Assembly: GCA_020152595.1 (NCBI GenBank)
Contig: JAIGNY010001477.1
Location: 538,501 to 602,500, forward strand
Length of the DNA: 64,000 nt
DNA from: Chiridota heheva
Taxonomy: Eukaryota; Echinodermata; Holothuroidea; Apodida; Chiridotidae
Reading direction: 5' to 3'
In this document: piece by piece, positions 231 through 58,356 of the stretch
Position numbering within the stretch: position 1 is the stretch's first letter
How the letters are laid out: each line of letters starts with the position of its first letter
The notes under the pieces: generated by a model
The model's database searches: none
The model's input: only the letters and a program-made list of their open reading frames with translations
Told to the model about the DNA's origin: nothing
Made by a program: the position numbers and the translations under genes

Positions 231-454
231 TCTCTCCTCAACCCCCTTCCTACTCTAAAGCCCCTACCGCCCCTACACCAACTCCACTAATACCTTCATA
301 CATCAAGCTAAAACCAGCCAAGCAAACAACCAACAAACCAACAAATCAACCAGCAAACAACCAACCAAAAACAACCAATCAACAAACAACCTATCAACAA
401 ACAACCAATCAACAAACAACCCACCTCCCAAACCCACACTGAAGAGAGTATGGA

Positions 455-1190
455 TTGTTCGACACGAACACACCGATCATACTTCTCGCCCAATTTTCAA
501 AAACAATCGCTCCCAAAGAAACAAATCCAAAGAAAAAAAGCTTAACTCAGACCCAGCAGATCTTCCTCCAGATAACCCCCGCCTCCTTTATGGCATACAC
601 CACAATCAATTACAATAACACCCACAACATCATACAATGGAACATTAGGAGCCTTAAGGCCAATTCTGAAGAAATCGACCTTCTGGCCTCCACCTTCAAC
701 CCGGTCGTCTTCTGCCTACAAGAAACTTTCTTGAAAACCACCGACCATTACTCCCTTAACAACTTTGCTTGCTATCACAAACATCAAGTGGATGCTGACA
801 GGGCCTGTGGTGGCGTCTCCATTCTCGTTAGACACGATATCCAACACAGCCCTGTTCGTGTGCACACCGACCTTCAGGCCATCTGTATTTCTATCTCCTC
901 CACAAAACTTTCACTCTCTGCAATATCTATCTCCTCCCAACACCAACATTCAACCAACCAGCCTTAACAACCTCATCTCTCAGCTTCCCACCCCTTCATC
1001 CTTCTTGGTGACTTCAACGCTCACAACCCTCTGTGGGGCTCTAATACCACCACCCCTAGAGGCAAGTTCATCGAAAACGCTCTCCGTCAGCACAGCCTGT
1101 CCTTACTGAACACTAACTCCCGACCTACCTTCATCCTGCCACAGGCTCTCTCACCTGTATTGACCTGTCTATCTGTTCCCTAACCTCCTC
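455..1190 (+). pseudogene. LINE family A endonuclease domain, frameshifted
   Basis: The first part is open from 455 to 967 and contains NIIQWNIRSLKANSEEIDLL and then VVFCLQETFL, which match the N-terminal catalytic blocks of APE-like LINE endonucleases (QWN..., QET). A frameshift near 960 moves the continuation to another frame, where ILLGDFNAHNPLWGS and then FIENALRQHSLSLLNT are readable. The GDFNAH block carries the conserved Asp/Asn pair. The domain is therefore recognisable over its length but cannot be translated as one protein. It nicks target DNA in active relatives. Confidence 0.85.
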
Positions 1191-2089
1191 CTTGACTTTA
1201 GTTGAGAGTCACTGCTGACCTCTGTGGTAGTGATCATTACCCTCTTCTTATACACTCCAATCTTCAAATCCCCACTGAGCACACCCCAACTGGAACCTCG
1301 ACAAGGCTGACTGGTCCTTTTGAAACCCTCTGTGACTCACACCTCTCCCCCCATCTTCTCGAGGATGAGGATCCCATGTCTAACTTCAGTAATATCCTTA
1401 TCAACATCGCCACCTGCTCAATTCCCAAAACCTCCAAACCCCCAAATCATCCCCCAACCCCTGGTTCTCAGATGACTGCAAAACCGCCATCAAGAACAGG
1501 AAAAGAACCTCAGGAACTTTAAAACTAACCCGACCACCCATAACCTTAACCTCTTTCGCATCAGCCGTGCAAGGCCAGACGCACTATCAGGACAGTAAAA
1601 CCAACACTTGGAACAACTTTATCTCTTCTCTCACCACCAACACCCCACTAAGAAGATTTGGAGAATGGTTAACAGCTTCCACGGCAGAGTAGGCAAATCT
1701 TCCATCTCCCATCTCTCTTGGAATGGAGACCTTCTCACCGCAAAAAAGACATCGTTGACCACCTGCCGCCTCTTTCAGCAACATCTCGGCCTCGACCAAC
1801 TACTCCAATGCTTTTAAAATCAAAAAGCTTGCGATGAAGCCCGGAGAATCACTTTTCCTCTGACAACTCCAAAGCTACAACACCTCTCTCACCCTTTCTG
1901 AATTAAACCAAGCCATCAGCGGACGCTGGCTGCACCTCCAAGGGCCCAGATAACATCCCCTATCAGTTTCTGAAACACCTCCCCATCAAAGCCACCACTA
2001 CCCTACTCACCATCTTCAACCACATTTGGTCCTCACACTCCTTTCCCCTATCTGGAGGACAGCTATTGTCATCCCGTCCTTAAACCGGG

Positions 2090-2870
2090 AAGGATAGCAC
2101 CGACCCCACCAGCTACCGACCCATCGCCCTTACTTGCTGTCTCTGTAAAATTATGGAAAAGATCATTAATCAGAGACTAAACTGGTTCCTCGAGACCAAC
2201 AGAATCCTCTCTCCTCACCAAAGCGGCTTCCAAAACGCGTCGCAATACCCTTGACCAGTTAATTACGCCGACACCGCTATCTGGGAATCCTTTGCAAAAA
2301 GGAACACCTCATTGCCATATTTTTTGACCTCGAGAAAGCTTTCGACACTACTTGGAAATACGGCATTACCGGAAACTTCACACCATTGGCCTCAGAGGCC
2401 ACCTCCCCATCTTTATTCAAAACTTCCTCTCACCCAGGCAGTTCCAAGTTCAGATTGGCCACACCCTCTCCAAGCCCCCCCCAAGAAGAGGGCGCCCCCA
2501 AGGCAGCATCCTCCCCCACTCTCTTCAACCTGAGCATTAATGACATCGGGAATGACCTTGGCCCCAGCATCAAACGTACCTCTCGTGGATGACTTCACCA
2601 TCTTCTACTCCTCCCCTAGCTTTCCTATTGTTGAAAATAGGCTTCAAACCAGCCTCAATCAGCTGCAAGTCTGGAGCAACAATAACGGTTTTAGATTCTC
2701 CAAAGACAAGACAGTCTGCATGCACTTTTGTCATTTCAACAACCTCCACCCCAACCCGAACTTTGTGCTCAATGGGAATCGCATCCCTAAAGTTGAAAAC
2801 ACAAAGTTCCTTGGTCTAACTCTAGACCCCAAGCTCACCTACAAGCCCACATCACCAACCTGAAACTAAA
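2090..2870 (+). pseudogene. LINE family A reverse transcriptase, multiply broken
   Basis: Separate frames show the reverse transcriptase blocks in order: TSYRPIALTCCLCKIMEKII near 2105-2165, FFDLEKAFDTTW at about 2320-2355 (first catalytic Asp), QGSILPHS near 2500 and VDDF at 2585-2596 (catalytic Asp pair), then NTKFLGLTLDPKLTY near 2797-2845. The spacing is that of LINE RTs. Frame changes between every two or three blocks show several old indels. In an active element this enzyme carries out target-primed reverse transcription. Confidence 0.88.
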
Positions 2871-3459
2871 ATGCAATAGCTCCTCAACCTCCTCCGACTG
2901 CTCTCCAACACTACTTGGGAGCGAACGCTATGCTCTCCTCAAAATTTTCAGGCTCACCATTCGTGCCAAGCTTGACTATGGCAGTATTGTTTACTGTGTC
3001 GCTCACAACTCATACCTCAACCACATTAACACCATCCAAAATGAAGCCCTCAGGCTTTGTCTAGGAGCCTACAGGACCTCCCCAATCACTAGCCTTCATG
3101 TTGAAGCCAACGAACCCCCTTTCTACTTAGATGTAAAAAAGCTTAGCCTCTCCTATGCTTTTAGAGTCCTCACCAACACCCAGAACCCTGTTTACAACCT
3201 CATTAGGTACCTCAATTTCTCCTCCCTCTTTGATAGGACTAAAACCCTATCGCCCCCTTCAGCTTACGATTAAATCAGACCTCTTTCAACTTGGCATCAA
3301 CCCGCCACTCTCGGCACCTATTCCTGGCCCACTTTTCCGCCTTGGGCCACCCCCTTCCTTCTGTCCACCTCGACCTCTCCACTTATAACAAAACTCAAAC
3401 TCACCTAATCTCTTCATCAATCTCCACAACCAAATCAAAGACCAACTCTCAAATTACAC

Positions 3460-3840
3460 CTCCATCTATACTGATGGCTCCAAGGAAGGCAACAAGACAG
3501 CTGCTGCTGCCATCATCCAAGACATCACCCTCAGTAGCAGACTTCCTGACCACTCATCCATCTTTTCAGCCGAGGCTAAGGCCATTCTCCTCGCCCTCAA
3601 CTTTATTGAGTACTCTCCTCTTAGTCACTTTGCCATTTTCTCTGACTCAAAGGCTGTTCTTACTTCATTACTCAATCTTAAATGGGATAACCTCACCTGC
3701 CACCTCCTCCTCCTCCGGAAACTCTTTTCTCCCACCCTCTGCAGGAAAAGTGTTCTTTTCTTCTGGATACCCAGCCATGTTGGCATCCCTGGCAATGACA
3801 GGGCTGATACAGCCGCTAAGCTTGCCCTTAACCTCCTCCC
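3460..3840 (+). pseudogene. LINE family A RNase H domain
   Basis: One frame reads YTDGSKEGNKTAAAAI (3467 on), FSAEAKAILLALNF, FAIFSDSKAVLTSLL and FFWIPSHVGIPGNDRADTA (about 3758-3815). These carry the RNase H catalytic set D, E, D and the late D of GNDRAD. An RNase H domain after the RT is known only for some LINE clades (I, Ingi, R1, LOA, Tad1 and part of Jockey). A C-terminal tail with LRIGHTHLTHSHLL follows near 4020-4060, which in these clades precedes a Cys-rich HILL.CP-type motif. Confidence 0.88.
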
Positions 3841-4470
3841 TTCCCCTTTTCCCAAAACCCTCTCTGACATCAAACCGCTTATCGCTTCTCTTGTTCGTGA
3901 CCGCTGGCAAACCTTATGGAACTTCCAAATTGATAACAAACTCCATGTTATCCAGCCCACAATCGATCAAATCCACCATCAACAACCTTTCTCGATCGAC
4001 AACGTTCATATTACCCGTCTTAGAATTGGTCACACCCACCTCACTCACTCCCACCTCCTTATTGGTTCCCCCAACCCCTCTGTAACAATTGCCACTGCAT
4101 CCTTACAATCCAACACGTTCTCCTTGCTTGCCCCCTGTACAACCTTCCCAGAGCTTCTCTCGCTCCCCACAACTCAATTGCTGAGTTCTTCCAAAAGATC
4201 CTCCAGATAAAATAGTCTCCTTCCTTCAGCATGCATCCCTCTACAACCATATTTAATCCTCCTCTTCCACCCCCTCTCTACTCTGTTTTTAGTTTTACCC
4301 ATGCACCTCCTCTCTCGATCACAGCTTTCTGGCTTTTGTTCTTGAATTTCTCTCATTCTTCCCCTGGTCTCTTTCCTTACTACCTCTAAAATGATCTGAC
4401 CTCTCAGGCACAATTTGACCTTCGTTGTCGTGGTGCCGTTAAGACCTCATCAAACAAACAAACAAACAAA

Positions 4471-5084
4471 ATGATTTAAAACAAAAATCTTCATTTTCAC
4501 TAATCCTGATAATAATTCAAGCATTGTCAATAAAGTTAAGTAGGCCAAAATTGCCATAAAATATACTGCACGTGTTCACACACACAGCAAGTCTGTAATA
4601 CCTCGCGCTCGAGATATCCAGAGGTGCCTAAGACATGAGCAGTTTGGATTTAATGTGGGAATCCCCTTGAATTTTGTGTGGCCCACTCAATGATTCTTTC
4701 ACGTGGAATGTAATAAAAAAGTTAGTACGGTATCCCCATGACCTTATTAGGAGTTACAGCGTGGCTGTGAGCGAAAGATTTGCACATGGACCAGTCAGTG
4801 TTTGGGAGATATGTACTGTGATTCGATAGTGAATGGATATAGGCGGAAATTTCTTGTGTCTGTAGTTGATCTTATGTTATGTTATTAAGCACTAGCATGG
4901 GCCTTCCTTATGAGCGCAAGCTAGCTGCGTTCCATCCATTCCCATGTACCGTGGAAATGTTTAGTGTTATGCATATGGACCCCGGATGAAATGTGAAGGC
5001 AATAACTTAGTGGGTAAAGATCGACACAAGAAGAAAAAGGTTGGTTAGATGGTTTCGTGAATTTATTCAAACTATAAAAAAAAA
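4471..5084. other. No gene seen
   Basis: Between the LINE tail and the next dispersed repeat, six-frame reading shows no open frame with recognisable protein character, and I see no RNA gene. Base composition is mixed AT-rich. Confidence 0.6.
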
Positions 5085-5745
5085 CATAAAATTGAAATAA
5101 TATTCATTTACATGGAGCATGATATCTAAACGGATAATAGAACAAACGGGCAGGTAAACGGATAATAGAACAAACGGTTGGTAAATGGATAACCCTAGTC
5201 TATGGCCAGGTACATAAGTTTGCTGTTTAACTACTTCTGAGTTTGATTGTCTTTGAATTTTGAAAACAGCATGTGTAGTTTTCACGTTATGAGTGATTAA
5301 AGTTTGAACACTTTTAAATAAATAATGTGATGTATGAACAGGAAAACACCTCAAAATGCTTTTGTTTTTCTTGATATTTTTTGTTCTTAATTTAAAACCT
5401 TGAAAATTATTCCAAAATACTTTCTCCAGATTGAGGTTGGTTGGGGTCATGATAATGATCACATCCTCATCAGAATTATCTTCCCTGTTTGAAAGAGAAA
5501 TGACAGGGGGTTAGAAAACTAATGGATTTATATAAGAAATTATATACCATTCATACATCACAAGAGTAACACACAAATTTGCATATTTGCACAAACATCT
5601 TCAAAAAGCTGTAAAATGGCCAATTATAACCGATTGTGATTTTTTTTTGTTGCTTTCTTTATGTTTCTTAGTGGGTTTTAAATAAATTTAGCTAATGTTG
5701 CCTCTACCTGTCCATATACTTTTAAATTAATGTCACAAGCATATT
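5085..5745 (+). repeat. Dispersed repeat B, copy 1
   Basis: This stretch is clearly related to 38150-39190: both contain ATGTATGAACAGGAAAACAC, then AAATGCTT, a TGAGGTTGGTTGG block, an AGAGAAATG-CAG-GGGTTA block, a TTCATACATCA block and AAAAGCTGTAAAATGGCCAA. Order and spacing are kept. A reverse-orientation piece of the same family is at 24950-25230 and a + piece at 46170-46740. It has no recognisable coding capacity. The class is unknown. Copy 1 lacks the TTAA mini-elements found inside the copy at 38150, so it serves as an empty-site comparison. Confidence 0.7.
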
Positions 5746-9108: not shown

Positions 9109-11343
9109 ATGTACCCAGTGAGATGTATGTACCATCTCCCTGATGCACCTATATGTACCGAGGGCGATGTGTGTACCATCTCCCTGATGCACCTATATGT
9201 ACCCAAGGAGATGTGTGTACCATTTCCCTGATGTACCTATATGTACCCAGGGAGATGTATGTACCATCTCCCTGATGCACCTATATGTACCCAGAGAGAT
9301 GTATGTACCATCTCCCTGATGCACCTACATGTACCCAGGGCGATGTATGTACCATCTCCCTGATGCACCTATATGTACCTAGGGCGATGTATGTACCATC
9401 TCCCTGATGCACCTATATGTACCCAGGGCGATGTATGTACCATTTCCCTGATGCACCATCCCCTGATGCACCATCTCCCTGATGCACCTATATGTACCCA
9501 GGGCGATGTATGTACCATCTCCCTGATACACTTATATGTACCCAGGGACATGTGTGTACCATCTTCCTGATGCACCTATATGTACCCAGGAAGATGTATG
9601 TACCATCTCCCTGATGTATCTATCTGTACCCAGGGAGATGTATGTACCATCTCCCTGATACACCTATATGTACCCAGGGAGATGTATGTACCATCTCCCT
9701 GATGCACCTATATGTGCCCAGGGAGATGTATGTACCATCTCCCTGATGCACCTATATGTACCCAGGGTGATGTATGTACCATCTCCCTGATGCACCTATA
9801 TGTACCTAGGGCAATGTATGTACCATCTCCCTGATGCACCTATATGTACCCAGGGTGATGTATGTACCATCTCCCTGATGCACCCATATGTACCCAGGGT
9901 GATGTATGTACCATCTCCCTGATGCACCTATATGTACCCAGGGAGATGTATGTACCATCTCCCTGATGCACCTATATGTGCCCAGGGAGATGTATGTACC
10001 ATCTCCCTGATGCACCTATATGTACCCAGGGTGATGTATGTACCATCTCCCTGATGCACCTATATGTGCCCAGGGAGATGTATGTACCATCTCCCTGATG
10101 CACCTATATGTACCTAGGGAGATGTATGTACCATCTCCCTGATGCACCTATATGTACCCTGGGTGATGTATGTACCATCTCCCTGATGCACCTATATGTA
10201 CCCAGGGTGATGTATGTACCATCTCCCTGATGCACCTATATGTACCCAGGGAGATGTATGTACCATCTCCCTGATGCACCTACATGACCCCAGGGAGATG
10301 TATGTACCATCTCCCTTATATCCTATATGTACCCAGGGAGATGTATGTACCATCTCCCTGATGCACCTATCTGTACCCAGGGAGATGTATGTACCATCTC
10401 CCTGATGCACCTATATATACCCAGGGAGATGTATGTACCATCTCCCTGATGCACCTATATGTACCCAGGGAGATGTATGTTCCATCTCCCTGATGCACCT
10501 ATATGTACCTAGGGAGATGTATGTACCATCTCCCTGATGCACCTATATGTACCCAGGGTGATGTATGTACCATCTCCCTGATGCACCTATATGTACCCAG
10601 GGAGATGTATGTACCATCTCCCTAATGCACCTATATGTACCCAGGGTGATATATGTACCATCTCCCTGATGCACCTATATGTGCCTAGGGAGATGTATGT
10701 ACCATCTCCCTGATGCACCTATATGTACCCAGGGTGATGTATGTACCATCTCCCTGATGCACCTATATGTACCCAGGGTGATGTATGTACCATCTCCCTG
10801 ATGCACCTATATGTACCCAGGGTGATGTATGTACCATCTCCCTGATGCACCTATATGTACCCAGGGAGATGTATGTACCATCTCCCTGATGTAGCTATAT
10901 GTACCCAGGGAGATGTATGTACCATCTCCCTGATGCACCTATATGTACCCAGGATGATGTATGTACCATCTCCCTGATGCACCTATATGTACCCAGGGAG
11001 ATGTATGTACCATCTCGCTGATGTACCTATATGTACCCAGGGAGATGTATGTACCATCTCCCTGATGCACCTATATGTACCCAGGGTGATGTATGTACCA
11101 TCTCCCTGATGCACCTATATGTACCCAGGGTGATGTATGTACCATCTCCCTGATGCACCTATATGTACCCAAGGTGATGTATGTACCATCTCCCTGATGC
11201 ACCTATATGTGCCTAGGGAGATGTATGTACTATCTCCCTGATGCACCTATATGTACCCAGGGTGATGTATGTACCATCTCCCTGATGCACCTATATGTAC
11301 CCAGGGAGATGTACAGTATGTACCATCTCCCTGATGCACCTAT
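9109..11343 (+). repeat. 44-bp minisatellite, about 51 units, hairpin-forming
   Basis: The unit is ATGTATGTACCATCTCCCTG followed by ATGCACCTATATGTACCCAG and GGAG (44 bp), repeated head to tail without spacers. Each boundary holds CAGGGAGATG-TATGTAC-CATCTCCCTG, a perfect 10-bp inverted repeat with a 7-base loop. The CATCTCCCTG arm is nearly invariant, while the fifth-sixth bases of the other arm vary (GGGAG, GGGTG or GGGCG). GGGCG units cluster near the left end (9160-9510). Short frames through it on both strands arise only because the unit is poor in stops. Confidence 0.95.
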
Positions 11344-22488: not shown

Positions 22489-23475
22489 ACTTTCAAAAAG
22501 GCACCTCCTGCCCCATTTTGCCCTCAACTTTCAAAAGGGCACCTCCTGCCCAGGTCTGCCCTCAACTTTCAAAAGGGCACCCTCTGCCCAGGTCTGCCCT
22601 CAACTTTCAAAAAAGCACCTCCTGCCCAGGTCTACCCTCAACTTTCAAATGGGCACCTCCTGCCCAGGTCTGCCCTCAATTTTCAAAAAGGCACCTCCTG
22701 CCCAGGTCTGCCCTCAACTTTCAAAAGGGCACCTCCTGCCCCGGTCTACCCTCAACTTCCAAATGGGCACCTCTTGCCCAGGTCTGCCCTCAACTTTCAA
22801 ATGGGCACCTCCTGCCCAGGTCTGCCCTCAACTTTCAAAAGGGCACCCTCTGCCCAGGTCTGCCCTCAACTTTCAAAAAGGCACCTCCTGCCCAGGTCTA
22901 CCCTCAACTTTCAAAAGGGCACCTCCTGCCCCGGTCTACCCTCAACTTCCAAATGGGCACCTCTTGCCCAGGTCTGCCCTCAACTTTCAAAAAAGCACCT
23001 CCTGCCCAGGTCTGCCCTCTAATTCCAAATGGGCAACTCTTGCCCAGGTCTGCCCTCAACTTTCAAATGGGCACCTCTTGCCCAGGTCTGCCCTCAACTT
23101 CCAAATGGGCACCTCTTGCCCAGGTCTGCCCTCAACTTTCAAATGGGCACCTGCCCAGGTCTGCCCTCAACTTCCAAATGGGCACCTCCTGCCCTGGTCT
23201 ACCCTCAACTTCCAAATGGGCACCTCTTGCCCAGGTCTGCCCTCAACTTTCAAATGGGCACCTCCTGCCCAGGTCTGCCCTCAACTTTCAAAAGGGCACC
23301 TCCTGCCCCAGTCTGCCCTTAACTTTTAAATGGGCACCTCCTGTCCTTGTCTGCCCTCAACTTTTAGAAGGGCACCTCCTGCCCCGGTCTGCCCTCAACT
23401 TTCAAAAGGGCACTTTCAAAAGGGCACCTTCTGCCCTGGTCTGCCCTCAACTTTTAAAAGGGCACCTCCTGCCCC
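22489..23475 (+). repeat. 38-bp minisatellite, about 26 units
   Basis: The unit AAAAGGGCACCTCCTGCCCA + GGTCTGCCCTCAACTTTC (38 bp) repeats without spacers and ends in a poly-C tract at 23472-23484. Variation is mostly AAAAGGGC/AAATGGGC and CTCCTGCCC/CTCTTGCCC. Because 38 is not divisible by three and the unit lacks stops in all three forward frames, long frames run through it (the longest is 22467-23648), each cycling through the three readings every 114 bases. GGGCA-CCTCC-TGCCC in each unit can form a small hairpin. I see no evidence that it is translated. Confidence 0.93.
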
Positions 23476-38027: not shown

Positions 38028-38330
38028 TGCATGTGTTATTTCAAATTTCCTATGATTGACTTGATATTTATTTTTTTTTTCTGCGAAGTCCTCATTGTAT
38101 AAAATGGACTTGCTTGACCACTGAACGAATCCTTTAAGGTTTTGTGACCCATTGAGGTGACCATAACATTGTGAGCCTTTTAGCGACTTCCACCAGTATA
38201 CCAAACTACTACATTAGTTGTCCTTGTCTGTGGATGATCCAAGACTTTTCTGTTCAACCACTGACTGAAAAGTCTTGAGTTTAATAAATAAATAGTCTTG
38301 AATTTTGATAATAGCATGCATGGTTTTTAA

Positions 38331-38667
38331 CCCCTTGAGCGCTAGAATCGGATAATCTGCAGCTTCCCCTGCTTGTACATCTATGTATCTAGCGCTCTGG
38401 TTTAGTGCTAGAATCGGATAATTCACAGCTTCCCCTGCTTGTACATCTATGTTTCTAGCACTCAAGTTGAGCGCTAGAATCGGATAATTCACAGCTTTCC
38501 CTGCTTGTACATCTATGTTTCTAGCACTCAAGTTGATCGCTAGAATCGGATAATCTGCAGCTTCCCCTGCTTGTACATCTATGTTTCTAGCACTCAAGTT
38601 GAGCGCTAGAATCGGATTATCTGCAGCTTCTGCTGCCCGTACTTATACTTACTAGCGCTCAAGGGGG
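38331..38667. mobile_element. TTAA|CCCC element with interior expanded to five 66-bp units
   Basis: Flanked by TTAA (38327-38330 and 38668-38671), it starts CCCCTTGAGCGCTAG and ends CTAGCGCTCAAGGGGG, a terminal inverted repeat of about 15 bp. TTAA duplications with CCC termini are typical of piggyBac-type elements. The interior is five units, each with GCGCTAGAATCGG at 38339, 38405, 38471, 38537 and 38603, exactly 66 bp apart. Unit boundaries read TTTCTAGCACTCAAGTTGA, so every unit has its own inverted ends. As 66 is divisible by three, a minus-strand frame stays open through it; I regard that as a by-product. Confidence 0.85.
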
Positions 38668-38671
38668 TTAA

Positions 38672-38745
38672 CCCCTTAAGCGCTAGAATCGGATAATCTG
38701 CAGCTTCCCCTGCCCGTATATATACGTTTCTAGCACTCAAGGGGG
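38672..38745. mobile_element. Single-unit TTAA|CCCC mini-element, 74 bp
   Basis: Between the shared TTAA at 38668-38671 and TTAA at 38746-38749 lies one unit of the same sequence: CCCCTTAAGCGCTAGAATCG at the left and TTTCTAGCACTCAAGGGGG at the right. It is among the shortest possible forms of such an element and shows that the five-unit neighbour is an internally amplified version. Confidence 0.85.
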
Positions 38746-39408
38746 TTAAGTTCTGAGTAATCAAAGTTCAAAATTTAAAAAAAAATGTAATGTATGAACA
38801 GGAAAACACCCCAAAATGCTTGTTTTCTTTATATTTCTTCCCATCATTTCAGACCTTGAAAATGTTCAAAATACCTTCTTGAGGTTGGTTGGTGGTACAG
38901 TATGTCAGTGATCAGTCCTCTACATCAAATCTTCTTCTTTTTTTCGAAGAGAAATGGCAGAGGGTTAAAAACCAATGAATTTATATTAGAAAATAGAGAC
39001 TTTGTCCTGTTCATACATCAAAAAGTAGCACAAACATTTGCATATTGGAACAACAATCTTAAAAAGCTGTAAAATGGCCAATTTTTAACTGATTTTTATG
39101 ATTTTTGTTTCTTTTATGTGTTTTAGTGGACTTCAAACAAATCAATTTAGCTAATGTTGCATCTAGTTGTCCATTTACATTTAATTGCAGTGACGGAGTT
39201 GGAATTAATTATGAAATTTCCCATGGTTTTGAGTAAAGGTGTCGAAAATCTTCCCCGAAAAATTGCGACAGAAATGTTGTGAATACATCTCTATATACTT
39301 CCCTCTTACGCAATTTAATGTACTTTTCATCGCACAATTACACGGGGGGGATGTCTTAGAGCACATATTTCCCACATATACTTTTAATCATGAAATCTAA
39401 AAAAATTA

Positions 39409-51293: not shown

Positions 51294-51489
51294 ATGCCTA
51301 GTACATCTCAGGAAAGTACATCTCAAGAAAAACACTCAATAATTGAAAAGCTGCAATCGTGGAACCAGTCCAGCCAGCCAGTCGACGAGCGAAGGATGAT
51401 TGGCAGGTCACGCTTTGTTTACATCAAGAAGCACAGCAGCATGAGTCACTTTAGGAGAACCCGAAAGTACAGCTACAGTACGTCACAGG
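51294..51489 (+). other. Unrecognised 65-codon frame split by a LINE
   Basis: An open frame begins MPSTSQESTSQEKHSIIEKL and is Ser/Gln- then Arg/Lys-rich. It is cut at 51490 by a family A LINE. After the LINE (53147 on), the same strand carries the IDESQQNKIQE-coding array and a frame ending IIGQSVVEIFTNKTLSREVD. These may be pieces of one old element or gene. I recognise no family, and the composition is compatible with chance. Confidence 0.3.
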
Positions 51490-53146
51490 AACACTAAGTT
51501 CCTGGGTTTAACCCTAGACCCCAAACTCTCCTACAAACAACACATCACCAATTTGAAACAGAAATGCAACAGCTCCCCCAACATTCTCCGACTCCTCTCC
51601 AACACCACTTGGGGTGCGAACCCCAAGCTCTCCTCAAAATCTTCAGGCTCACCATTCATGCCAAGCTCGACTACGGCAATATTATATATTGTGCTGCTCA
51701 CAACTCTTACCTCAACACCATCCAAAATGAAGCCCTCAGGCTTTGTCTGGGTGCCTACAGGACCTTCCCTATTACAAGCCTTCTCGTTGAAGCCAACGAA
51801 CCCCCCTTTCTGCCAAGGTGTAGAAAGCTTAGCCTTTCCTACGCTTTTAGAGCCCTTAACCAACACTTAAAACCCTGTTTACAACCTCATTAGGTATCCC
51901 AATTTCTCCACCCTCTTTGATAGAACTAAAACCCTATCCCCTTCTTTCAATTTACGCATCAAACCAGACCTACACCATCTCAGCATCAACCCTGCTTCTC
52001 TTGGCACCTTCTCCTGGCCCACTTTTCCTCCCTGGGCCACCCTTCTGTCCACCTGGGCCTCTCCACTCATTACAAAACCCAAACCCACCCTAACCTCTTC
52101 ATCAATCTCCACAACCAAATCAAAGACCAACTCTCAAACTACACCTCCAACTATAATGATGGCTCCAAGGAAGACAACAAGACAGCTGCTGCTGCCGTCA
52201 TTCAATACATCACCCTCAGTAGCAGGCTTCCCAACCACTCGTCCATCTTCTCGGCCGAGGCCAAGGCCATCCTCCTCGCCCTCAACTTTATTGAGTACTC
52301 CCCGCTCAACCACTTTGCCATCTTCTCCGACTCCAAGGCTGTCCTTACTTCTTTACTCAATCTTAAATGCGATAATCCCACATCCCACCTCCTCTTCCGT
52401 AAACTCCTCCCTCCCCCTCCTTTCCGGAAATGTATTCTTTTCTTCTGGATACCCAGTCATGTTAACATCCCTGGCAATGACAGAGCTGATGCAGCCACCA
52501 AGCTTGCCCTCAACCTCCCCCTACTCCCTTTCCCAAAACACTTTCTGACATCAAACCGCTTATCGCTTCCCTTGTTCGTGACCGCTGGCAAACCTCATGG
52601 GACTCCCAAATTGATAACAAACTCCACATCATCCAGCCCACCATTCCGGTCAAACCCACCATCCACAATCTCTCCCATGCCGACAACGTTCACATTACCC
52701 GCCTTAGAATAGGTCACACCCACCTCACTCACTCCCACCTCCTTATTGGCTCCTCCCAACCCTCTGTAACAATTGCCATTGCACCCTCACAGTCCACCAT
52801 GTCCTCCTTGCTTGCTCCTTGTACATACTTCCCAGAGCTTCCCTCGCTCCCCACAACTCAATAGCTGAGCTCTTCCAGAAAAACCCTCTGGATAAAAATA
52901 TCTCCTTCCTTTATCATACTTCCCTCTACAAACATATTTAGTCTTCCTCTCCCACCTCCTCCCTCTACTTTCACCCCTTTTTTCACCCATGCACTCCCTC
53001 TCTCGATCCCAGCTTTCTGGCTTTTAGTCCTCTTGTTTCTCTCAATCTCCTATTTTCTTTTCTTCTTACCTCTGGAATGATCTAACCTCTCAGGCACAAT
53101 TTGACCCTTGCTGTTGTGCCGTGAAGCCATCATTAAACAAACAAAC
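51490..53146 (+). mobile_element. LINE family A, 5'-truncated RT-end plus RNase H copy
   Basis: Homology to 1-4470 begins at AACAC-AAGTTCCT (2798 in the first copy) and runs to the tail AACAAACAAAC at 53137-53146. Readable pieces include LRLCLGAYRTFPITSLLVEA (51564-51893 frame), FAIFSDSKAVLTSLLN and FFWIPSHVNIPGNDRADAA. The YTDGS motif has become YNDGS. GTCACAGG occurs just before the 5' junction (51482-51489) and again 9 bases after the tail (53155-53162), a possible target duplication with filler. Frameshifts make it a pseudogene. Confidence 0.88.
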
Positions 53147-53251
53147 AGGAGCAAGTCACAGGCATATGTCACACAGATAAGGGGCAAAGAAGTTGGTATG
53201 ATGGACAGTTTATTTGGAAATAGAAATAGTCTTTGGGATATTTAACGGGAA

Positions 53252-54640
53252 AATACAGGAACGTACGGTACCTTATTGATGAAAGTCAGCAGAACAAAAT
53301 ACAGGAACGTACGTACCTTATTGATGAAAGTCAGGAGAACAAAATACAGGAACTTATTGATGAAAGTCAGCAGAACAAAATACAGGGAACGGTACCTTAT
53401 TGATGAAAGTCAGCAGAACAAAATACAGGAACGTACGTACCTTATTGATGAAAGTCAGGAGAACAAAATACAGGAACTTATTGATGAAAGTCAGCAGAAC
53501 AAAATACAGGAACGTACGGTACCTTATTGATGAAAGTCAGCAGAACAAAATACAGGAACGTACGTACCTTATTGATGAAAGTCAGGAGAACAAAATACAG
53601 GAACTTATTGATGAAAGTCAGCAGAACAAAATACAGGAACGTACGGTACCTTATTGATGAAAGTCAGCAGAACAAAATACAGGAGCGTCGTACCTTATTG
53701 ATGAAAGTCAGCAGAACAAAATACAGGAACTTATTGATGAAAGTCAGCAGAACAAAATACAGGAGCGTCACGGTACCTTATTGATGAAAGTCAGCAGAAC
53801 AAAATACAGAGCGTCGTACCTTATTGATGAAAGTCAGGAGAACAAAATACAGGAACTTATTGATGAAAGTCAGCAGAACAAAATACAGGAGCGTCACGGT
53901 ACCTTATTGATGAAAGTCAGCAGAACAAAATACAGGAGCGTCGTACCTTATTGATGAAAGTCAGGAGAACAAAATACAGGAACTTATTGATGAAAGTCAG
54001 CAGAACAAAATACAGGAAGCGTCACGGTACCTTATTGATGAAAGTCAGCAGAACAAAATACAGGAACGTACGTACCTTATTGATGAAAGTCAGCAGAACA
54101 AAATACAGGAACTTATTGATGAAAGTCAGCAGAACAAAATACAGGAACGTACGGTACCTTATTGATGAAAGTCAGCAGAACAAAATACAGGAACGTACGT
54201 ACCTTATTGATGAAAGTCAGGAGAACAAAATACAGGAACTTATTGATGAAAGTCAGCAGAACAAAATACAGGAACGTACGGTACCTTATTGATGAAAGTC
54301 AGCAGAACAAAATACAGGAGCGTCATTTACCTTATTGATGAAAGTCAGGAGAACAAAATACAGGAACTTATTGATGAAAGTCAGCAGAACAAAATACAGC
54401 GTCACGGTACCTTATTGATGAAACAGAACAAAATACAGGAGCGCGTGCCTTATTGATGAAAGTCAGCAGAACAAAATACAGGAACTTATTGATGAAAGTC
54501 AGCAGAACAAAATACAGGAACGTACGTACCTTATTGATGAAAGTCAGGAGAACAAAATACAGGAACTTATTGATGAAAGTCAGCAGAACAAAATACAGGA
54601 ACGTACGGTACCTTATTGATGAAAGTCAGCAGAACAAAAT
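53252..54640 (+). repeat. 36/45/46-bp minisatellite with 127-bp higher-order repeat
   Basis: The basic unit CTTATTGATGAAAGTCAGCA + GAACAAAATACAGGAA (36 bp) alternates with forms extended by CGTACGTAC or CGTACGGTAC. Three kinds follow in fixed order, the middle one with GTCAGGAG instead of GTCAGCAG, giving a 127-bp higher-order unit (starts near 53400, 53527 and 53654). Later units carry GAGCGTC variants. Translated, the 36-bp form reads LIDESQQNKIQE, a possible amphipathic helix, but frame changes at the extended forms break any long protein. Confidence 0.93.
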
Positions 54641-57249: not shown

Positions 57250-58356
57250 GAGATCCCATTTTAGACAGTGCACCCATGTTTGAAAGTGCACCCATGTTAG
57301 AAAGTGCACCCATGTTTGAAAGTGCACCCATTTTAGAAAGTATGCCCGTGCTGGAAAGTGTGCCCATGTTGGAAAGTGCGCCTATGTTGGAAAGTGTGCC
57401 CATGCTGGAAAGTGCGCCCATGCTGGAAAGTGTGCCCATGCTGGAAAGTGCGCCCATGCTGGAAAGTGCGCCCATGCTGGAAAGTGCGCCCATGCTGAAT
57501 AGTGCGGCCATGTTGGAAAGTGCACCCATGCTGGAAAGTGCGCCCATGCTGGAAAGTGCGCCCATGCTGGAAGGTGCGCCCATGCTTGGAAAGTGAGCCC
57601 ATGCTGGAAAGTGCGCTCATGCTGGAAAGTGCGCTCATGCCTGAAAGTGCGCCCATGCTGGAAAGTGCGCCCATGCTGGAAAGTGCTCCAATTTTAAAAA
57701 GTGTGCCCATGTTGGAAATTGTGCCCATGTTGGAAAGTGTGCCCATGTTGGAAAGTGTGCCCATGTTGGAAAGTGCGCCCATGCTGGAAAGTGCGCCCAT
57801 GCTGAATAGTGCGCCCATGCTGGAAAGTGCGCCCATGCTGGAAAGTGCGCCCATGCTGGAAAGTGCGCCTATGCTGGAAAGTGCGCCCATGCTGGAAAGT
57901 GTGCCCATGTTTGAAATTGTGCCAATGTTGGAAAGTGTGCCCATGTTGGAAAGTGTGCCCATGTTGGAAAGTGCGCCCATGCTGGAAAGTGCGCCCATGC
58001 TGAATAGTGCGCCCATGCTGGCGCCCATGCTGGAAAGTGCGCCCATGCTGGAAAGTGCGCCCATGCTGGAAAGTGCGCCCATGCTGGAAAGTGCGCCAAT
58101 GCTGGAAAGTGCGCCCATGCTGGAAAGTGCGCCCATGCTGGAAGGTGCGCCCATGCTTGGAAAGTGCGCCCATGCTGGAAAGTGCGCCCATGCTGGAAGG
58201 TGCGCCCATGCTTGGAAAGTGAGCCCATGCTGGAAAGTGCGCCCATGCTGGAAAGTACGCCCATGCTGGAAAGTGTGCCCATGCTGGAAAGTGCGCCCAT
58301 GCTGGAAAGTGCGCCCATGCTGGAAAGTGCATCCATGCTGGAAAGTGCACCCATTG
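57250..58356 (+). repeat. 18-bp intronic minisatellite, about 61 units
   Basis: The unit CCCATGCTGGAAAGTGCG repeats for 1.1 kb, starting about 80 bp after the exon 3 donor and ending about 185 bp before exon 4. Units at both ends have diverged (TTTGAAAGTGCACC at the left). A block of 11 units is duplicated: 57703 on and 57901 on share the same order of variants (ATTGTGCCC, then three TTGGAAAGTG forms, then CTGAATAGTG) 198 bp apart. As 18 is divisible by three, all six frames stay open for long stretches (PMLESA on plus, MGALSS on minus); these are not taken as genes. Confidence 0.95.

Follow-up and report, generated by a model that had tools for sequence, protein, structure and literature searches.

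A 415-bp non-coding insertion lies at positions 38331-38745 of the 64,000-nucleotide stretch of the Chiridota heheva genome analysed here (contig JAIGNY010001477.1; the whole stretch is called the window below). With its borders included (38327-38749), it has the layout TTAA / element 1 / TTAA / element 2 / TTAA (Table 1). An earlier note, made from the letters of the window alone, had described five units at 66-bp spacing joined at a common TTAA to a 74-bp element of one unit, and this description is accurate; the fifth unit measures 65 bp. The unit starts of element 1 are spaced by exactly 66 bp, and Tandem Repeats Finder independently called the same period (38335-38630). Each unit corresponds to a small element minus its outermost bases, with inverted ends of about 15 bp (CTTGAGCGCTAGAA / TTTCTAGCACTCAAG) flanking about 36 bp. 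Pairwise identity among the window units ranges from 76 to 95%; units 1-4 have CTGCTTGTACATC in common, and unit 5 and element 2 retain the common CTGCCCGTA. The note had also stated that every internal unit boundary keeps inverted ends. This is true of three of the four, which read CTCAAG-TTGA(G/T) (hyphen at the boundary), whereas the first reads CTCTGG-TTTAG and has CTAGCGC, not CTAGCAC.

Table 1. Coordinates of the insertion, its units and the repeat that holds it (window positions)
Feature	Positions	Strand	Remarks
Target site duplication, left copy, TTAA	38327..38330	.	window copy of the joined flanks splits at query 1-181 / 178-582; the 4-nt overlap is TTAA
Element 1, five-unit chain, CCCC...GGGGG	38331..38667	+	337 bp, CCCCTTGAGCGCTAG...CTAGCGCTCAAGGGGG
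Unit 1	38335..38400	+	66 bp; closest of 141 compared units is unit 4
Unit 2	38401..38466	+	66 bp
Unit 3	38467..38532	+	66 bp; 63/66 bases same as unit 2
Unit 4	38533..38598	+	66 bp
Unit 5	38599..38663	+	65 bp; CTGCCCGTA (consensus type) vs CTGCTTGTA in units 1-4
TTAA common to elements 1 and 2, joint GGGG-TTAA-CCCC	38668..38671	.	
Element 2, single unit	38672..38745	+	74 bp; 94-95% identity to L014 and L017 units
Sixth unit (within element 2)	38676..38741		
Target site duplication, right copy, TTAA	38746..38749	.	
Older dispersed host repeat holding the insertion	38231..39150	+	span of the joined query in the match, which need not coincide with the repeat ends
Insert-free copy of the same host repeat	5253..5444	+	limits by alignment; TCAC at the TTAA position

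The end sequences are concentrated in the insertion. With up to three mismatches, CTTRAGCGCTAGAAT has 12 matches in the window (11 in the insertion and one at 4884) against 1.8 expected, and none of 100 shuffles reaches 12; TTAACCCCTTRAGCGC has five (four in the insertion) against 0.5 expected, a number reached by none of 100 shuffles. As a single strand, element 2 with its TTAAs folds with a z-score of -3.2 (2 of 200 shuffles as good). A 142-codon frame spans the array on the minus strand (38214-38642) and is presumably a by-product of the 66-bp period. A tRNA-derived element was considered and rejected, because the window is without a tRNA. The possibility that the arrays exist because of a structured or self-cleaving RNA was likewise rejected: no Rfam family reaches its gathering score in the window, and of just eight matches with E values up to 1 in five of the 28 loci described below, none attains its gathering score. 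Elsewhere in the window, the stretches 443-4210 and 51445-52712 resemble by eye the remains of two related non-LTR retrotransposon copies, with an endonuclease domain match (PF03372) at 443-964 and RNase H matches (PF00075) at 3389-4207 and 51930-52709. Long tandem arrays at 9109-11343, 22489-23413, 53250-54640 and 57267-58354 have periods of 44/132, 38, 36/127 and 18 bp, respectively; in the 38-bp and 18-bp arrays, reading frames stay open for as many as 397 and 355 codons, perhaps as a by-product of the repeats.

The repeat that received the insertion is very common (3741 first-look candidates genome-wide, with 74-80% identity among scored places). The joined window flanks were matched at 40 other scored places among these candidates, and 38 of them run continuously through the insertion point; the matches at the remaining two start or lie past it. 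The earlier note had pointed to a related repeat in the window that lacks the insertion, which the alignment confirms, but the site there is TCAC and not TTAA. Across this copy and 20 further uninterrupted ones, the site reads TCAA in 11, TTAA in 2 and otherwise in 8. Since TTAA is found in just 2 of these 21 relatives, the site either had TTAA or had to gain it before insertion. Two further loci, L011 with six units and L018 with four, sit in repeats with uninterrupted relatives, several of which have TTAA at the exact point. The empty sites for the window, L011 and L018 imply that whole chains lie between duplicated TTAAs: at these three loci, the chain as a whole is found between one TTAA pair.

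How widespread are such chains? Following a search that the earlier note had proposed, we looked for the same termini throughout the 1.1-Gb assembly (3744 contigs) and tabulated units per locus. The whole region as query gave 54 matches on 28 contigs, from each of which one stretch was fetched, and element 2 as sole query gave 134 matches, all on the same 28 contigs. A unit profile counted 171 units at these 28 loci, partial units included (27, 25, 18, 14, 10, 7, 7, 6, 6, 6, 6, 4, 4, 4, 4, 3, 3, 3, 2, 2, 2 and 2 units, and six loci with one). Head-to-tail chains of 2-27 units make up 22 of the 28, with a single orientation of units within each locus, and the longest extends over about 2.3 kb. 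Among the six single-unit loci, four (L031, L033, L034 and L035) are damaged or have a remnant after the unit. The exact end TTAACCCCTTRAGYGCTAG occurs at 67 places genome-wide, with none in the control, and only one of these is new (on contig C3161, scraps only). A pattern taken from the interior, without the ends, has 121 matches (control 0), of which the 100 least divergent were listed, all at the 28 loci. These counts are lower bounds. The loci were found with a six-unit query that scored the best candidates only; this scoring and the 21 more divergent interior matches outside the list mean that single or divergent copies may be under-counted. The 13-base end TTAACCCCTTGAG occurs at 106 places against 16 in the control; among the 100 of the 106 that were listed, 11 are isolated places on other contigs and 13 belong to a small array on contig C2496, about the level of chance. 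In that array (C2496:969933-970689), the 13 listed places are mostly 21 bp or multiples thereof apart, and what it has in common with the element end is those 13 bases. The element pattern has no match in IMG/VR contigs. One of the chains, the 18-unit L021 (contig C867), is a divergent subtype with a period of mostly 91-92 bp, joints such as GGGGTTTAAATGTTGACCC and 0.715 identity to other loci.

TTAA is present at the expected offset at 18 of 24 complete left ends and 19 of 25 complete right ends, and at both ends in 13 of 21 cases, against a chance of 3.9% per end; the six left and six right ends that are missing an exact TTAA are assumed to have decayed. Taken with the 67 exact places and the three empty sites, the TTAA at most outer edges upholds the note's reading of a TTAA-duplicating, CCCC-ended, piggyBac-like mini-element, and loci beyond the window do exist with flanks that mostly have TTAA. 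We give almost no credence to an ordinary minisatellite or satellite formed without transposition; it would account for tandem, homogenised units, but not for TTAA at both edges far above chance, for precise TTAA-flanked empty sites at three loci or for dispersed single units with the same ends. The bases outside the TTAA vary between loci. Flank likenesses between loci, judged by eye, occur at differing offsets, and the loci are therefore not copies of one larger repeat. A larger repeat that carries arrays, as described for oyster Helentrons (PMC7492417), was rejected on these grounds. The note's picture of an element whose interior became an array has to be corrected: each 66-bp unit is a whole element minus its joint, and whole-element chains are the commonest form found (22 of 28 loci).

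To which type of transposon might the element belong? MITEs of the piggyBac/TTAA type have been defined by inverted ends of 12-19 bp with a CC[C/T]T motif (PMC2872659). The element duplicates TTAA, is short and non-coding (74-bp unit) and has imperfect inverted ends of about 15 bp, which start CCCC-TTGAG, with CCCC rather than CCCT; the ends of CMITE family III are likewise reported as CCCC (PMC2872659). We call the element piggyBac-like and assign it to no named family. Kolobok, another superfamily that duplicates TTAA, would fit the duplication, and Xenopus and KolobokP offer precedents for amplification, in that the MITE Xmix, assigned to Kolobok, has an amplified internal segment and KolobokP forms multimers (PMC6004289, PMC9587614). 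A Kolobok-type element is nonetheless very unlikely, because Kolobok ends are given as 5'-RR...YY-3' (PMC9587614), whereas those found here are 5'-CC...GG-3'. The genome holds 117 matches above cut-off to the piggyBac DDE domain PF13843, some of them pieces of one gene, and five lie in frames of 588-681 codons without interruption. Two of the 12 transposase places read, L067 and L070, show clear inverted ends next to TTAA (CCCTTTCCTGCCC and CCCTTTCATGCAT, both 14 of 16), and L071 has a doubtful pair, with TTAA-CCCT on both sides and unlike continuations. TTAACCCC is in none of the 12 stretches, and TTAACCCCTTGAG lies beside a transposase match at none of the 100 of 106 places listed. The autonomous partner with the same termini that the note had proposed to look for did not turn up in the 12 stretches, but this is a weak test, since no more than two or three of the stretches show a recognisable end pair.

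Adjacent units are separated by 143 joints altogether, of which 13 adjoin partial units and were set apart, leaving 130 to be classified. The commonest form is GGG-TTAACATGTTAA-CCCC, which gives a period of 85 bp, and a perfect palindrome of 42 nt is centred on this joint where the end variants match. Fifty joints at 13 loci fit TTARCATGYTAA, and 35 more at 11 loci have CATG; the rest comprise 14 of the form TTAA-N-TTAA without CATG, 20 with one TTAA, eight of 4 nt or fewer and three others. A CATG joint is found in 16 of the 22 chains, L011 and L018 among them, and exact TTAACATGTTAA occurs 38 times in 11 loci. The count of 16 omits L023, whose CATG lies in a 403-bp gap; no CATG joint occurs in L022, L027, L030, L032 or the window. 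Outside the outer TTAA, by comparison, the adjoining 4-mer is CATG at just 3 of 39 ends (L017, L027 and L033; at L033 another unit remnant follows).

Some joints are confined to single loci. Inside element 1 they measure 0-4 nt, and a genome-wide search for the zero-length 66-bp joint with up to three mismatches returned seven matches, all of them the four window joints read on both strands, with none elsewhere and none in the control. Four of the eight joints of 4 nt or fewer lie outside the window, in L015 (two), L017 and L019, and their sequences are unlike the window's CTCAAG-TTGAG. It is the 66-bp period alone that looks local to the window. L009 has a unit type of its own, 77 bp long, and part of the left flank of L010 reappears within the chain there, a trace of local duplication. 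Conceivably, replication slippage or unequal exchange enlarged every chain in situ, between the two TTAA copies of a single insertion, as has been inferred for the CMITE arrays. The locus-specific joints at the window and L009, the flank piece inside L010, the homogenisation within loci and the TTAA shared by elements 1 and 2 would all be explained in this way. As the only cause, growth in place is nevertheless improbable, because it accounts for growth and not for the origin of a common joint: the CATG spacer recurs at 16 unrelated loci, although each locus tends to have other 4-mers beside its outer TTAA. The same spacer is hardly to be expected from growth at unrelated sites, and the joint was thus probably inherited. 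It follows that the chain form is probably older than the window insertion. An inherited joint requires either that chains, dimers at least, were moved, or that joints which had moved were added by recombination. We prefer movement by the outer ends, with growth in place retained as a part of the explanation.

Among 141 of the 171 units, those that are near complete, identity averages 0.891 within a locus and 0.795 between loci. It is higher at home than outside for 17 of 19 loci, the exceptions being L023 and L025, whose units resemble outside units more than one another. The nearest unit lies at the same locus for 91 of 133 units, against a mean of 11.7 and a maximum of 24 in 500 shuffles. 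Interiors are nearly as conserved as ends (0.875 and 0.889). Had chains moved whole, their first units might be the most alike across loci, which is not observed: with L021 (the divergent type) and loci of fewer than three units left out, first-first minus first-inner identity is +0.001 (28 of 55 locus pairs above zero). Last units are slightly more alike across loci (+0.011; 71 of 105 pairs above zero). Alike end units, considered as a proof of chain movement, are thus weak or absent.

With this test so weak, recombination keeps about a fifth of the weight. On that account, transposition involved single elements to begin with, and each locus acquired its chain afterwards through homologous recombination with circles or other copies that held the CATG joint. 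A route by circles has been proposed for KolobokP (PMC9587614), and it would combine shared joints with locus-specific flanks without any movement of chains. The existence of single-unit loci and the lack of clear likeness between end units across loci are in keeping with it. We consider it unlikely, however, because it requires a second event at most loci, and because single-unit loci are just 6 of 28, four of them damaged or followed by a remnant. The reading that we hold to be probable is that a small, non-autonomous piggyBac-type element with a 74-bp unit exists mostly as head-to-tail chains, each of them inserted as one unit.

How might such chains have arisen and spread? We envision an ancestral dimer, formed by two elements that ended up at adjacent TTAAs with CATG between them. 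A piggyBac-type transposase would then have moved dimers or longer chains by way of their outermost ends, and it is this use of the outermost ends that would leave unrelated loci with the TTAACATGTTAA joint in common, but not the flanks. After landing, slippage or unequal exchange may have altered the number of units and homogenised the chains, perhaps helped by the palindromic joints. In the window, a short chain would have been inserted first, and the central palindrome of one joint would then have been lost, leaving CTCAAG-TTGAG and a period of 66 bp; this unit would have multiplied locally, with element 2 staying near the common form. That the window joint lost its palindrome and that the unit multiplied there afterwards is the probable course of events. 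The note had left the choice between end-to-end joining of elements and slippage inside the element; the uniqueness of the 66-bp joint now favours a deletion together with slippage or unequal exchange over joining end to end. Nor need transposon ends be seeding a satellite afresh here, as the note had suggested, given that the TTAACATGTTAA joint is common to unrelated loci. The longest chain, at about 2.3 kb, is short for a satellite.

The joint between elements 1 and 2 may have come about by collapse of TTAACATGTTAA to TTAA or by a second insertion. Two independent insertions, the second into the TTAA that flanked the first, would be compatible with the movement of chains. They are expected to leave exactly GGGG-TTAA-CCCC, and autointegration of piggyBac into TTAA motifs of its own construct has been reported (PMC3952818). 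Yet the common joint, which is the most frequent one, would yield the same sequence save for one G if TTAACATG were lost from between its two TTAAs, and we regard the second insertion as a possible but doubtful event.

Corals and other animals are already known to have similar chains. The first case, according to its authors, is that of Acropora, from which tandem arrays of whole piggyBac-type MITEs were described in 2010 (PMC2872659). These CMITEs are piggyBac/TTAA MITEs of about 100 bp with CCC(C/T) ends, some in whole-element tandem arrays with like spacers, and the Acropora genome, like that of C. heheva, has piggyBac-like transposons (PMC2872659). CMITE interiors are reported to be well conserved (PMC2872659), as they are here, and whole elements stand in tandem at 22 of our 28 loci. 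The printed CMITE interior has no similarity to ours (its local alignment score is 13.0, the mean of 500 shuffles is 13.1, and 265 of them do as well). The two families also differ in other respects. According to the report, arrays were found in some of 7 and 12 short multi-element WGS entries, with about 1600 copies estimated in one species (PMC2872659), whereas chains predominate here; a single spacer, TTAACATGTTAA, is common to several loci, unlike what is described there; and its authors infer slippage (PMC2872659), whereas the shared spacer points to chain movement as well.

Multimers within one target duplication are also described for KolobokP, with unequal crossover or circles proposed and small deletions at inner joints (PMC9587614). 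KolobokP has a Kolobok transposase and a coding interior, its direct repeats measure about 450 or 660 bp, and Kolobok ends are RR...YY (PMC9587614), whereas the present element has a non-coding 74-bp unit with CC...GG ends and no such long direct repeats. The Xenopus MITE Xmix/Xstir targets TTAA and carries tandem repeats (PMC12628747 and PMC6004289, both on Hikosaka and Kawahara 2004), but that MITE, which is assigned to Kolobok, has amplified an internal segment, whereas here whole elements are repeated with their ends. In miDNA4, also from Xenopus, the number of tandem units is variable (PMC12628747, on Scalvenzi and Pollet); this MITE is of the Tc1/mariner type and is thought to have captured an internal repeat (PMC12628747). 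Routes from MITE to satellite are listed in a 2025 review (PMC12628747), and tandem MITEs derived from hAT elements are reported from cod (PMC12368964). In the open-licence PMC literature, consulted mostly as titles and abstracts, we found no report of piggyBac-type MITE chains with one joint across loci, which is not proof of absence; one of the element's end sequences is present in 658 papers, and the 20 of these that were listed look unrelated by title.

The conversion of transposons into tandem repeats has often been argued from few arrays. A single family with 28 loci of 1 to 27 units, with shared as well as locus-specific joints and with empty sites, allows the movement of chains to be weighed against growth in place. 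Going further, we might speculate that the chain is the normal mobile form, a MITE kept multimeric because its paired inner ends (with matching end variants, the 42-nt palindrome around TTAACATGTTAA) aid end pairing, excision or amplification; transposition itself would then spread ready-made arrays able to start satellites; we put this forward tentatively, as a rather unlikely extension. If our preferred explanation is true, a TTAA-duplicating, piggyBac-like route carries tandem arrays to new sites.
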